From Alphaproteobacteria bacterium (GTDB lineage: Bacteria > Pseudomonadota > Alphaproteobacteria > SP197), in contig JAJEBJ010000003.1 of the NCBI GenBank assembly GCA_022822575.1, positions 1 to 34,647 on the forward strand: DNA of 34,647 bases, in the 5' to 3' direction. Below the pieces are notes generated by a model. It made no database searches. It had not been told where the DNA came from and worked only from the letters and a program-made list of their open reading frames with translations. This document shows positions 12,635 to 18,543 of this stretch, one piece after another. The position numbers and the translations under genes were made by a program. The number at the start of each line of letters is the position of its first letter. The first letter of the stretch is position 1.

Positions 12635-13651
12635 ATGCCGACGCTTGATGCGGATGTCCTGGAGGGCTTCTGCAAGGACATTCTCGTTGACGCCGGCATG
12701 CGTGACGGCGACGCCGGCGCGGTTGCCGCCCATCTCGTTGACGCCGAACTCAAGGACGTTGTCTCCCATGGCGTCAACAGGATTCCCTACTACCTCTCGT
12801 TTTTCGAAAGCCGCAGCGCCGAACCGGTTGCCGATATCACCGTGACACGGCACGGGCCTTCGGTAGCACGTGTCGACGGCGGCAGCGGACTTGGCATTCT
12901 GGCCATGGAACGGGCGGTCGATGAACTGATTGACATGAGACGTCACCAGCCGGTGGTTACAGCCGGTATCGTCAATGTCGCCCACACCGGGCGCATGGGC
13001 GCCTACGCCGAACGACTGGCCCGGCATGGCCTGCTGGCCATGATCTGCGGTGGCGGCGGGCGGGAGCGCTGGCGCATGGTGGCCGCCCATGGCGGTCGCG
13101 GCGGGGTGCTGTCGACCAATCCCTGGGCACTTGCCATGCCGGCTGGTGAGGCCGGATCCGTATCGGCGGATTTTGCCACCTGTGTCGTGGCAAACGGCAA
13201 GATTCGCCTGCGACGTCGAACCGGCGAGGAGGTGCCTGAAGGCTGGCTGATCGACCGCGACGGTCATCCCACCACGAATATCGATGATTATGACAACGGC
13301 GGAGCCCTGCTCCCGGCCGGCGGCCACAAGGGTTACGGTCTCGCCATTATTGGGGAGATTGTCGGAAGCGCCATGCTTGGCCCGGCATTCGAATTCAACT
13401 GGTTTATTGTCGCCATCGCCACGGACGTCTTCAGTTCAGCCGAGCACTATGACGAAAACGCACGGGCCATTGTCGAAAACCTGCGTGCCTCACCGCCCGC
13501 TCCCGGTTTCGACCGCGTGCGGGTTCCGGGCGATCCCGAAAGGGAAAGCGAATGCCGGAAACGGAAATCCGGAATCGAACTTCACTCGGAAGTCTGGCAA
13601 GGCCTCGTCGATGCTGCCCGAAAAACCGGGGTGCCGGTGCCGTTGGCCTGA
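12635..13651 (+). CDS. Ldh-family (malate/L-lactate/ureidoglycolate-type) dehydrogenase
   Basis: VSHGVNRIPYYLSF, VAHTGRMGAYAERLARHG, TNPWALAMPAG, GGHKGYGLAIIGEI. Confidence 0.92.
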   Translation: MPTLDADVLEGFCKDILVDAGMRDGDAGAVAAHLVDAELKDVVSHGVNRIPYYLSFFESRSAEPVADITVTRHGPSVARVDGGSGLGILAMERAVDELIDMRRHQPVVTAGIVNVAHTGRMGAYAERLARHGLLAMICGGGGRERWRMVAAHGGRGGVLSTNPWALAMPAGEAGSVSADFATCVVANGKIRLRRRTGEEVPEGWLIDRDGHPTTNIDDYDNGGALLPAGGHKGYGLAIIGEIVGSAMLGPAFEFNWFIVAIATDVFSSAEHYDENARAIVENLRASPPAPGFDRVRVPGDPERESECRKRKSGIELHSEVWQGLVDAARKTGVPVPLA

Positions 13652-13671: not shown

Positions 13672-14568
13672 TCAGCTGGCGACGTATCGATATCCGTCGC
13701 GATGCACCCTGCCTTCCTGCAGGAGGTCCTTGACAGCCCGTGTCGCGTCGGCGCCGGAAAGCGACACACCGGTCACCTGCTCGACGCCAGCACGAATGGC
13801 GGACATTTTGCAGCCTGCTTCTCCAGCCCGGGCGATGACGCCGGCAACTTCGGCCATCGCCTGCGCGACCTCGTCGGAAACAGGCTTGCGGGGACGCCCA
13901 CGCCTGGCGCCTCCCGACGGTGCCGCCGGTGCGGTCAACTCCAATTCGTCGGATCCGCCTGACGCCGGATCTTCCTCGAACGGAATCGAGTCGTCCCCGG
14001 ACTGCGCCGCCACCGGTTCCTGACCGCCATCATCCGACGGCGCTTCGGTTTCGGCCTGAACGATCTCGGGCGCGGCCTCTGCTGCAGCTTCCCCGGCAGC
14101 CACGAAGCGGTAGCCCTCGCGTCGAATGCTCATTTCCGAAAGAAGCGACTGAAGAGCATCGTCAAGCGCCTTGCGTGTCGGTTCCTCGCCCTTGCGATTG
14201 GCCAGCAATCCGCTCAGGGCTGAACGCTTGACGCCGCGTTGACCGGAACCGGAAATCGCAGCGAGAACTTTCGCAGGCGCAACCCTGTCATGTCCTCCAG
14301 TGGCTTTTCCGGAGGGCTTCCGGCCGCGCCCTTTTCCGGACCGAGTCTTGCCGGTTTTCCTGGCGGGACGCCTGCCACTCCTTGACGGCTGGCGCTCCGC
14401 AGCGACATCGCCGATCAGCGCTTGCAGGCTTTGTGCCGCCTTTTGCATTTCCTCGATGGATTTCCCGACTGTTGCAGCTTCAGCCAGCAACGTCTGGTGC
14501 CTTTCTTCTTCGGATGCAATTTCCCTGTTAATCATCTCCAGGGCTTCTGCAATCTTGGCGTTGCTCAC
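13672..14568 (-). CDS. Predicted DNA-binding protein: coiled coil, basic/AT-hook-like segments, two related C-terminal modules
   Basis: GTG start at 14568 with AAGGGAG upstream; basic run RSGRRPARKTGKTRSGKGRGRKP; AT-hook-like RRGRPRKP; two modules ending RREGYRFVA and HRDGYRYVA. Confidence 0.75.
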   Translation of the reverse strand: MSNAKIAEALEMINREIASEEERHQTLLAEAATVGKSIEEMQKAAQSLQALIGDVAAERQPSRSGRRPARKTGKTRSGKGRGRKPSGKATGGHDRVAPAKVLAAISGSGQRGVKRSALSGLLANRKGEEPTRKALDDALQSLLSEMSIRREGYRFVAAGEAAAEAAPEIVQAETEAPSDDGGQEPVAAQSGDDSIPFEEDPASGGSDELELTAPAAPSGGARRGRPRKPVSDEVAQAMAEVAGVIARAGEAGCKMSAIRAGVEQVTGVSLSGADATRAVKDLLQEGRVHRDGYRYVAS

Positions 14569-14675
14569 GTGGTCTCCCTTTCCCGGTCGCTTCGAGATTC
14601 CGGTGTACTCCAACATGCACTAAAGCCGGGGTAGGCAAACGTCAATCCTTTTGTGCAGGAAGACGAAGAATGTAC

Positions 14676-14723: not shown

Positions 14724-15461
14724 ATGGCAGACAGTGACACCAAAGAAGGCTGGAGTGAGGATGATTCGCGCCACTTCATTGACTACGGCGCCTACTTTGT
14801 GCCCGAACGGGAAACACAGGTTGATACAATTTGCAGTGTCATTCCCAGTCCACAGGAAAATGCCCTCATTGTGGATATCTGCTGCGGTGAAGGTCTACTC
14901 GCTTCAGCCCTGGCCCGAAGATTCAGCAAATGCCATATCCTGGCGCTTGACGGCTCATCGGCCATGCTCGAGGCAGCAGGCAAACGCCTCGACAAAACCG
15001 GGGCATCCTGGACGACATCGATCATGGATATTGCCGATTCAGGCTGGCGGCAATTCGACCGCCCGGTCCACGCCTTCGTGTCGTCGCTTGCCGTCCACCA
15101 CCTCGACGGACCGGGAAAAGCCGGTCTGTTCAGGGATCTCGCAACTGCCCTCGCACCCGGAGGCGTGATCGTCATCTGCGATCTCGTCGAGGCGCGGAAT
15201 CAGGAAGGTCTCACGCTTTGGGAACGCCACTGGGACGACGGTGTCAGGGAAAGGGCTACCCGTCTCGATGGCAATGAGGACATGCTGCACTTCTTCCGCG
15301 AAGACGGCTGGAACTACTACAGCGATCCTGAAGCCGATCCGGTCGACATGCCATCCGGTCTGTTCGAACAGCTCAAGTGGCTGGAAGAGGCCGGTCTGGT
15401 GGATATCGATGTACACTGGCTTCTGGCCGGACACGCAATCATGTCAGCCCGCAAGCCCTGA
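14724..15461 (+). CDS. Class I SAM-dependent methyltransferase
   Basis: Motif I VDICCGEGLLASALARRF, LALDGSSAMLEAA, SSLAVHHLDGPGKAGLFRDLATALAPGGVIVICDLVE. Confidence 0.9.
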   Translation: MADSDTKEGWSEDDSRHFIDYGAYFVPERETQVDTICSVIPSPQENALIVDICCGEGLLASALARRFSKCHILALDGSSAMLEAAGKRLDKTGASWTTSIMDIADSGWRQFDRPVHAFVSSLAVHHLDGPGKAGLFRDLATALAPGGVIVICDLVEARNQEGLTLWERHWDDGVRERATRLDGNEDMLHFFREDGWNYYSDPEADPVDMPSGLFEQLKWLEEAGLVDIDVHWLLAGHAIMSARKP

Positions 15462-15470
15462 GACCTGACG

Positions 15471-17762
15471 TCAGGCGCATTTGGAGAACCCGCAGGATGT
15501 ACAGAGGTGGCACCCTTCCTGATGGATCAGGCCGGGAAGACCGCATCGCGGGCAACTGGCGGAGCGGCGATCCGGCTCGCCGACGGAGCCGATGCTCTCA
15601 CTTGTGTCGCTGATGAAACCGATGCTGGTCATGTGGGTCTCAAGCACATCGCCGATGGCGGCCAGCAGCGAGGGCACATAGCGACCGTTCATCCATGATC
15701 CGCCGCGCGGATCGAACACCGCCTTCAGTTCCTCGACCACGAAGCTCACGTCACCGCCACGGCGGAACACCGCCGAAATCATCCGGGTGAGACCCAGTGT
15801 CCAGGCGTAGTGATCCATGTTCTTCGAGTTGATGAAGACCTCGAAAGGCCGCCTGCGGCCATTCCTGACCACATCGTTCACAGTCAGGTAGATCGCATGG
15901 TCGCTCTCCGGCCAGCGCAGCTTGTAGGTTCTCCCCGGGAGAACCTCGGGACGGTCAAGGGGCCGGGTCAGGTGAATGACGCCGGCAGTCTCGAATGTAT
16001 CCCCCGGGATTTCGGATCCGGGCTCGTCAAGGGGCAGAAGGGGCTCGGCGTCCGCGGCCGCGGGCGCCTCGAGGACAGCACCCGTGACATCGTTCGGCCT
16101 GTATGTCGTGCATCCCTTGCATCCCAGCCTGTAGGCCTCGAGATAGACATCCTTGAAGTCCTCGAAAGGCATGTCCACGGGCACGTTGATGGTCTTGGAA
16201 ATCGAACTGTCGATGTACTCCTGGACGACCGCCTGCATGCGGATGTGGTCGGTCGGCCTGAGTGTCTGGGCATCCACGAAGTAGTCGGGCAGCGGAGCGT
16301 CCTCTCCGCGCATCCGGCGCCACAGGCGGAGCGCGTAGTCGGTGACCTCCTCGCTTCTCCTGGTTCCGTCGGGCATCAGCACATTGCGCGTGTAGGAGAA
16401 GGCAAAGACCGGCTCGAGACCCGAGGAGATGTTGTCTGCGAAGAGCGAAATGGTGCCGGTCGGGGCAATCGATGTCAGCAGTGCATTGCGGATGCCATTG
16501 GCAGCAATCGCGTCGCGCACGTCCCGGTCGAGTCCGGCGACGGTTTCACCCGCCAGATAGGCTTCGGCATCGAAGAGTGGAAAGGGTCCCTTCTCCTCCG
16601 CCAGGCGTGCCGATGCAAGATAGGCTTCGCGACGCAGGCATGCGAGCCAGGTGCGGGCCAGCGTGACCGCCCTTTCGCTGCCGTAATGCGCCTTCATCAT
16701 GATGAGCGCGTCGGCAAGACCGGTGACACCCAGACCGATGCGCCGCTTGGCGGCAGCCTCCTGACGCTGTTCCTCAAGAGGAAACTGCGACACGTCGATG
16801 ACGTCGTCCATCATCCTCACCGCAGCTGCCACCGTGCGGGAAAACCCCTCGTCATCAAACCGCGCTTCGTCACCGAAGGGATCGGTGATGAAGCGCGTCA
16901 GGTTGATCGAACCCAGGAGACAGGCGCCGTAGGGCGGCAGGGGCTGTTCACCGCACGGATTGGTGGCGGAGATAGTCTCGCAATAGTGGAGATTGTTCCG
17001 CCGGTTGATGCGGTCGATGAAGATGACGCCGGGCTCGGCGCAGGCATAGGTGCCGCGCATGATCCGGTCCCACAGGTCGCGGGCCGACACGGTTCCGTAG
17101 ACAACACCGTCAAAGACAAGCTCCCAGGCATCGTCCTGCCGGACCGCGTTCATGAAGGCATCGGTCACAAGCACGGAAAGATTGAACATGCGCAGCCGTC
17201 CGGCTTCCTGCTTGGCGTCGATGAACGCCTCGATGTCCGGGTGATCGCAACGCATGGTCGCCATCATCGCACCGCGACGGTGGCCGGCACTCATGATGGT
17301 GCGGCACATTGAATCCCAGACATCCATGAAGGTCAGCGGTCCGGAGGCGTCAGCGCCCACACCACGAACGGCAGCACCCTTGGGTCTCAGTGTCGAGAAG
17401 TCGTAGCCGATTCCGCCACCGGCCTGCATGGTGAGCGCCGCTTCCTTCAGGTGATCGAAGATCCCACCCATGTCGTCGGGAATGGTCCCCATGACAAAGC
17501 AGTTGAAGAGCGTGACATTCCTCTCGGTACCTGCACCGGCCAGAATCCTGCCGGCGGGCAGGAAACGATAGCCAGACATGGCCTCGAAGAACTGTTCTCC
17601 GATCCGGCGTCGGTTGGCGGGTTCCTCTACCGTGACACAGGCTCCTGCCACCCGTCGCCAGGTCGCCTCGACATTATCGTCGACCGGCGTGCCGTCGGGC
17701 CCCTTGAGACGGTACTTCATGTCCCAGATCTGCAAGGCAATGGGGGATTGTGCGTCGCTCAT
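15471..17762 (-). CDS. nrdJ: Adenosylcobalamin-dependent (class II) ribonucleoside-diphosphate reductase
   Basis: FLPAGRILAGAGT, ATNPCGEQPLPPYGACLLGSINLTRF, TSIAPTGTISLFADNISSGLEPVFA, C-terminal CPRCG...CTSCGFSKC. Start trimmed to MSDAQSPIALQIWDMKYR. Confidence 0.94.
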   Translation of the reverse strand: MSDAQSPIALQIWDMKYRLKGPDGTPVDDNVEATWRRVAGACVTVEEPANRRRIGEQFFEAMSGYRFLPAGRILAGAGTERNVTLFNCFVMGTIPDDMGGIFDHLKEAALTMQAGGGIGYDFSTLRPKGAAVRGVGADASGPLTFMDVWDSMCRTIMSAGHRRGAMMATMRCDHPDIEAFIDAKQEAGRLRMFNLSVLVTDAFMNAVRQDDAWELVFDGVVYGTVSARDLWDRIMRGTYACAEPGVIFIDRINRRNNLHYCETISATNPCGEQPLPPYGACLLGSINLTRFITDPFGDEARFDDEGFSRTVAAAVRMMDDVIDVSQFPLEEQRQEAAAKRRIGLGVTGLADALIMMKAHYGSERAVTLARTWLACLRREAYLASARLAEEKGPFPLFDAEAYLAGETVAGLDRDVRDAIAANGIRNALLTSIAPTGTISLFADNISSGLEPVFAFSYTRNVLMPDGTRRSEEVTDYALRLWRRMRGEDAPLPDYFVDAQTLRPTDHIRMQAVVQEYIDSSISKTINVPVDMPFEDFKDVYLEAYRLGCKGCTTYRPNDVTGAVLEAPAAADAEPLLPLDEPGSEIPGDTFETAGVIHLTRPLDRPEVLPGRTYKLRWPESDHAIYLTVNDVVRNGRRRPFEVFINSKNMDHYAWTLGLTRMISAVFRRGGDVSFVVEELKAVFDPRGGSWMNGRYVPSLLAAIGDVLETHMTSIGFISDTSESIGSVGEPDRRSASCPRCGLPGLIHQEGCHLCTSCGFSKCA

Positions 17763-17820
17763 CAAAGCATCTCTTCCGTCTCTCGTGACATCATAACGTT
17801 CCTGAAATGTACTCTCAACT

Positions 17821-18543
17821 CTAGCCCCTGTTCCTGGCCTCGGCGACGAGCTCCCTGGTTCCGGATTCGATCCTTGATTCAAGCTCTTCCATGAAACGTG
17901 CCCGCGGCAGGGCAGGTGGTATCGCCTCGAGGAAGGACATGACGGCGCACCCCGGCGTCTTTCTGATCTGCCGGCGCGGCCAGAAGACCCCGCTGTTGAG
18001 CGCCACCGGAACCACTGGCACGCCCAGTGCAGCGTAGAGTCCGGCCACGCCACGCTGATAGGCGACCCTTTCACCGGGAGCCGTGCGTGTCCCCTCGGGG
18101 AATATCACCATGCACCGGCCCTCGCTGGCCACCGTTGCCGCGTGACCCAGGATCCGGCGCAGTGCGGAGAGGCCGGCGCTGCGATCAATGGCGAGGCAAT
18201 CCATGGCCGAAATGAACCAGCCGACAACCGGAATTCGGACGATTTCCTGCTTTATGATGAAACAGGCATCCGGAAACAGCCTCACGAGGGCATAGGTTTC
18301 CAGGGCGGACTGGTGCTTGACGGCGATCAGCGCCGGGCCGTCAGGCAGATTGTTCCTGCCCCTCACCTCGATCCTGAGCCCGGCCACCACATCGAGGAGA
18401 AAGAGCTGCACACCGGCGAACCAGAAAGGAACCCGGGCGGCCAGGCGGCGTGCAAGGAGCAGTGTCGGCAGCGTCGTGACGCCCAGAAACACCATGACTC
18501 CAAGCGACAGGGCGAGAAACGCGCATGACCGGATGAGGGTCAT
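17821..18543 (-). CDS. plsC: 1-acyl-sn-glycerol-3-phosphate acyltransferase (PlsC family)
   Basis: KHQSALETYAL (HX4E form), VIFPEGTRTAPG; ATGA overlap with the upstream ydcF-like gene. Confidence 0.9.
   Translation of the reverse strand: MTLIRSCAFLALSLGVMVFLGVTTLPTLLLARRLAARVPFWFAGVQLFLLDVVAGLRIEVRGRNNLPDGPALIAVKHQSALETYALVRLFPDACFIIKQEIVRIPVVGWFISAMDCLAIDRSAGLSALRRILGHAATVASEGRCMVIFPEGTRTAPGERVAYQRGVAGLYAALGVPVVPVALNSGVFWPRRQIRKTPGCAVMSFLEAIPPALPRARFMEELESRIESGTRELVAEARNRG

Follow-up and report, generated by a model that had tools for sequence, protein, structure and literature searches.

A candidate H-NS-like silencer, P0001, in an alphaproteobacterial clade with a truncated MucR

In four related genomes of Alphaproteobacteria, the orthologous mucR gene is truncated and its zinc finger is lost; the same genomes encode a protein with two predicted winged helices, here called P0001. 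The lost part is the DNA-binding half of MucR, and the part that has been kept is the oligomerisation half. With moderate confidence, we regard P0001 as a clade-specific nucleoid-associated protein of the Rok/H-NS type that has most likely assumed the DNA-binding role of MucR. The silencing of AT-rich foreign DNA is regarded as a convergent solution in H-NS, MvaT, Lsr2, Rok, and MucR, but how a switch from one such protein to another happens is difficult to follow. In the present genomes, MucR persists at its locus and is under selection despite having lost its DNA-binding half, and an unrelated silencer-like candidate is encoded in the same genomes. If confirmed, this would be a case of silencer replacement open to direct testing. 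It would also add a MucR oligomerisation domain standing by itself and a novel architecture in which each chain has two units of hook and winged helix.

MucR is an H-NS-like silencer of AT-rich DNA whose N-terminal domain oligomerises (PMC6250670, PMC11662661, PMC8857273). In Brucella, its residues 1–56 form a ring-shaped oligomer (PMC11662661), and the region 33–44, with L36, L39, and I40, is required for oligomerisation (PMC6250670). We compared 16 genomes of the family, all of them drafts or MAGs, four with P0001 (the source genome, G001, G004, and G007) and 12 without. Of the 12 genomes that lack P0001, 11 have a full-length MucR (PF05443), the exception being G009. In the four that carry it, PF05443 matches only at positions 2–47 or 2–62, and a sensitive profile search yielded no other MucR sequence at E ≤ 10; the only MucR sequence of the source genome lies at G000:C250. 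None of the 16 genomes has H-NS (PF00816), with the E. coli control detected.

The truncated gene, mini-mucR, encodes 59 amino acids in each of the four genomes (L079:2220–2396, minus strand; L080:2986–3162, plus strand; L081:3290–3466, minus strand; L082:3327–3503, minus strand). The stop codon is at the same place, the sequences share the pattern M-E-K-A-M ... L-P/V-P-E-L-I ..., and dN/dS is 0.15–0.25. The product matches PF05443 at positions 1–44 with 35.7 bits (cut-off 25.4), which identifies it as an oligomerisation domain; the L39-I40 positions are kept, and position 36 holds L or V. The gene is the orthologous mucR, since the gene order is shared: five relatives have rpiB – mucR – ABC permease, and the P0001 genomes have rpiB – mini-mucR – exo/endonuclease-phosphatase-like gene – ABC permease. 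No trace of the zinc finger was found in the mini-mucR gene, in the DNA downstream, or in the rest of the genome (E ≤ 10). In a check across the class, 29 of 29 further MucR N-termini were followed in frame by zinc-finger sequence, whereas that of the source genome is not. Contamination or incompleteness of the MAGs was rejected as the cause of the missing MucR, because the truncated gene is found at the orthologous site in four genomes. The constraint on mini-MucR implies that it does something, i.e., that the system was remodelled and has not simply decayed.

Several observations accompany the truncation. The exo/endonuclease/phosphatase-family gene (L082:2386–3216, minus strand, with matching places in L079–L081) is not at that place in the five permease-bearing relatives, and MucR may have lost its zinc-finger half through the arrival of this gene. 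In G059, one of the 29 genes checked, the zinc-finger sequence lies in a shortened frame of 101 amino acids. Neither MucR nor P0001 was found in G009, from the same genus, even by sensitive search; this assembly is 90% complete and consists of 530 contigs, so that a real absence is uncertain there, and loss of MucR without P0001 may also occur.

The P0001 gene occupies positions 13,672..14,568 on the minus strand of the window (the whole analysed stretch of 34,647 nucleotides) and lies at a locus separate from mini-mucR. It encodes 298 amino acids plus stop from a GTG start at 14,568. The orthologs begin at the equivalent GTG, and a longer ATG start at 14,616 is not conserved. An RBS-like AAGGGAG is situated at 14,574..14,580 (minus strand), with a purine-rich box at the equivalent place in the orthologs. 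Pairwise dN/dS over the whole gene is about 0.25–0.37, the linkers being variable and the coil and modules constrained, a pattern indicating that the protein is made and under selection.

The protein consists, in this order, of a long helix, a basic linker with RGRK, module 1, an acidic linker, an AT-hook, and module 2, all encoded on the minus strand. A sequence-only reading of this DNA had proposed an N-terminal coiled-coil-like stretch, a basic and an acidic linker, and a near-canonical AT-hook, and each of these is recovered here, the first as a prediction. Residues 3–58 (14,395..14,562) are modelled by AlphaFold2 as one long helix with a heptad pattern (p = 0.008 against shuffles), and dN/dS in this region is the lowest of the gene for most ortholog pairs; it is predicted to form a coiled coil for self-association. 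The basic linker, residues 59–93 (14,290..14,394), has 13 K/R and no D/E, and the variable acidic linker, residues 159–220 (13,909..14,094), has 16 D/E and no K/R. Both linkers are disordered in the full-length AlphaFold2 model. The AT-hook RRGRPRKP, residues 222–229 (13,882..13,905), has a GRP core with basic flanks, the features of an AT-hook protein, although Pfam AT_hook is absent among the Pfam matches; RRGRPRK is invariant in all four orthologs, and a GRP-core hook arises in 0.28% of composition-preserving shuffles of P0001. The further proposal that a basic minor-groove-type segment precedes each module describes the layout correctly, but only the second segment is a canonical AT-hook. 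The first, KGRGRK(P), is by its sequence a non-canonical, RGR-type hook-like motif, the final P of which is replaced by A in three of four orthologs; its RGRK, residues 81–84 (14,317..14,328), arises in 1.4% of such shuffles.

Searches with P0001 gave no credible match in Pfam, NCBIfam, PADLOC, or PHROGs, and only chance matches to PDB chains by sequence. In particular, it does not match H-NS PF00816, Ros/MucR PF05443 (nor was a zinc finger found with Pfam), or the Lsr2 models of Pfam and NCBIfam, while a short RGR motif is present. Judged from these comparisons, P0001 belongs to no known family and is a previously undescribed candidate for a convergent H-NS-like silencer.

Orthologs were found only in the three other P0001 genomes, all from the same genus, with 82–88% identity and the same gene neighbourhood. 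P0001 was not found in the remaining 12 genomes of the family, and a divergent ortholog was sought at the syntenic sites of other family genomes and not found. A weak match in G010 (E = 0.004) was dropped, as it crosses two stops. The module profile, scanned against 385 genomes of the class, gave only weak matches (E from 2e-5 to 1e-2), and the three best-placed ORFs (L017, L018, and L020) were read. They are not RNase R winged helices; they are BamA-type outer-membrane assembly proteins with an RseP-type protease encoded upstream of them, and the match falls in the POTRA region. The class matches, none of them beyond chance POTRA-like ones, are hence treated as chance resemblance. Scanning 84,980 species genomes for a peptide pattern, an approach that reaches close relatives only, revealed no further P0001, and nothing was found in plasmids, phages, or viral contigs.

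In trees of two neighbouring genes, the four P0001 genomes form one clade with full support and a long stem of 0.32–0.38 changes per site. Thus, the gain of P0001 and the truncation of MucR are one observation and not four, and their coincidence by chance is possible. This feeds the strongest rival explanation, in which P0001 is a regulator with few targets, e.g., the divergent methyltransferase neighbour, and the truncation of MucR happened independently along the same long stem. The gene neighbourhood adds to it: P0001 is divergent from a conserved methyltransferase gene (14,724–15,461, plus strand), and in G003 its slot holds a nitroreductase-family gene (L065:1727–2473, minus strand), situated between the dehydrogenase and the methyltransferase. 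We nevertheless consider this explanation somewhat unlikely. With its two units of hook and wing and a long coil, P0001 looks more suited to multivalent binding than to recognition of an operator. Pfam and NCBIfam revealed neither a ligand-binding nor a receiver domain in it, and mini-MucR has been kept under constraint, which points to remodelling of the system.

On its other side, P0001 is convergent with a gene of the Ldh_2-family dehydrogenase (12,635–13,651, plus strand). The dehydrogenase and methyltransferase genes flank P0001 in all four P0001 genomes; in most relatives, they are unlinked or several kb apart. The methyltransferase gene is adjoined by an ordinary gene of the ribonucleotide reductase large-subunit type (15,471–18,074, minus strand), with Pfam barrel, N, and TSCPD domains.

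The sequence-only reading had also pointed to two related modules, residues 94–158 (14,095..14,289) and 232–298 (13,675..13,875), and these are true repeats. Their BLOSUM62 local score is 79, compared with 54 for the best of 2000 shuffles, and profile-profile alignment by hhalign gives a probability of 95.6% and E = 1.1e-8, with shallow profiles of four close sequences each. Fifteen positions are invariant over both modules in the four orthologs, including R59, Y62, R63, V65, and A66 at the wing. The accompanying idea of winged-helix-like units agrees with the predicted structures: modelled alone by AlphaFold2 from the module alignment, module 2 has the topology H-H-H-H-E-E with pLDDT 95.6, and the full-length model reproduces these helices and the wing in module 1 as well as in module 2, with pLDDT per 10-residue block of about 55–73 in module 1 and 81–88 in module 2.

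Foldseek gave no match at E ≤ 0.001 for either the module or the whole model; very small folds are usually without matches at this threshold. Most of the matches obtained are winged helices; they comprise, among others, the Rok DNA-binding domain, Sso10a, linker-histone GH5, ScpB/ScpAB, cullin, and MotA. The Rok domain (5zux/5zuz) ranks sixth for the module and third for the full model (E = 0.015–0.2). Assignment of the modules to the winged-helix class is thus well supported by prediction, and the choice of a nearest structural relative among winged helices is without good support.

Winged helices can also bind proteins or RNA. The modules of P0001 might accordingly be mainly protein-binding, as in ScpB, the cullin WHB, and the MotA activation domain, in which case P0001 would be a scaffold or chromosome-structure factor touching DNA by its hooks only. 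The ranking of the ScpAB, cullin, and MotA domains beside Rok and the lack of net basic charge in module 2 (nine acidic and eight basic residues) are consistent with such a role; however, the fold ranks are all weak and hence non-discriminating, each module is directly preceded by a basic hook or hook-like segment, and both repeats have R59, Y62, and R63 as invariant wing residues, which makes the protein-binding role improbable.

The nucleoid-protein reading of P0001 fits its layout (coil, basic hook, winged helix, acidic linker, AT-hook, winged helix), which contains the components that an architectural silencer would need. The N-terminal coiled coil would self-associate, the two units of hook and winged helix in each chain would grip the AT-rich minor groove, and the oligomers would coat and bridge DNA, silencing AT-rich genes. 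As the DNA-binding MucR is gone and H-NS is absent, the economical reading is that AT-rich binding and bridging are now supplied by P0001 where the MucR zinc finger has been lost. The finding on MucR strengthens the nucleoid-protein reading, which is plausible and unproven; the DNA binding of P0001, its AT preference, bridging, the replacement of MucR, and any link between P0001 and mini-MucR are inferred. The more specific scenario of a non-orthologous replacement, in which MucR was reduced to an oligomerisation hub of 59 amino acids and P0001 became the silencer of AT-rich DNA, perhaps with the hub as its platform, is tentative. Mini-MucR may serve as a multimerisation partner, as an antagonist, similarly to the action of H-NST on H-NS, or as something else.

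That mini-MucR itself is the primary innovation, a freed hub recruiting P0001 or another DNA-binding protein into a split two-part silencer, would account for its extent, which matches the Brucella oligomerisation domain at residues 1–56 (PMC11662661), for the residues retained at positions 36, 39, and 40, and for purifying selection though full-length MucR is gone, but it is quite improbable, given that P0001 has a predicted coil of its own and no MucR-like segment.

Among known systems, Rok, the xenogeneic silencer of Bacillus subtilis, has an N-terminal coil, a linker, and a C-terminal winged helix (PMC6212790, PMC6936261), a layout similar to the one predicted for P0001. In contrast to Rok, P0001 has two predicted winged helices, its linkers are basic and acidic where that of Rok is a neutral Q linker, and it carries AT-hook motifs, which are not used by Rok; the minor-groove contacts of Rok are made by N154, T156, and R174. 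MucR/Ros proteins resemble P0001 in the proposed job, i.e., an oligomer bridging AT-rich DNA (PMC11662661, PMC8857273), whereas P0001 lacks both a PF05443 match and a zinc finger, and its clade encodes MucR in a different gene, which is truncated. H-NS, Lsr2, and MvaT share with P0001 the layout of a self-association segment, a linker, and a minor-groove motif of the RGR/GRP type, but have no winged helices, and PF00816 is unmatched in the source genome. Finally, the archaeal nucleoid protein Sso10a combines a winged helix with a coiled coil and is among the Foldseek matches of P0001, as is linker-histone GH5, and HMGA-type proteins have AT-hooks, as P0001 does; for all three, no sequence similarity to P0001 was detected, and the architecture is different.

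The closest parallel to mini-MucR is H-NST, a truncated H-NS. H-NST coexists with full-length H-NS and antagonises it, whereas the P0001 clade has no full-length MucR; the two proteins are alike in being oligomerisation domains without a DNA-binding domain (PMC7074111).
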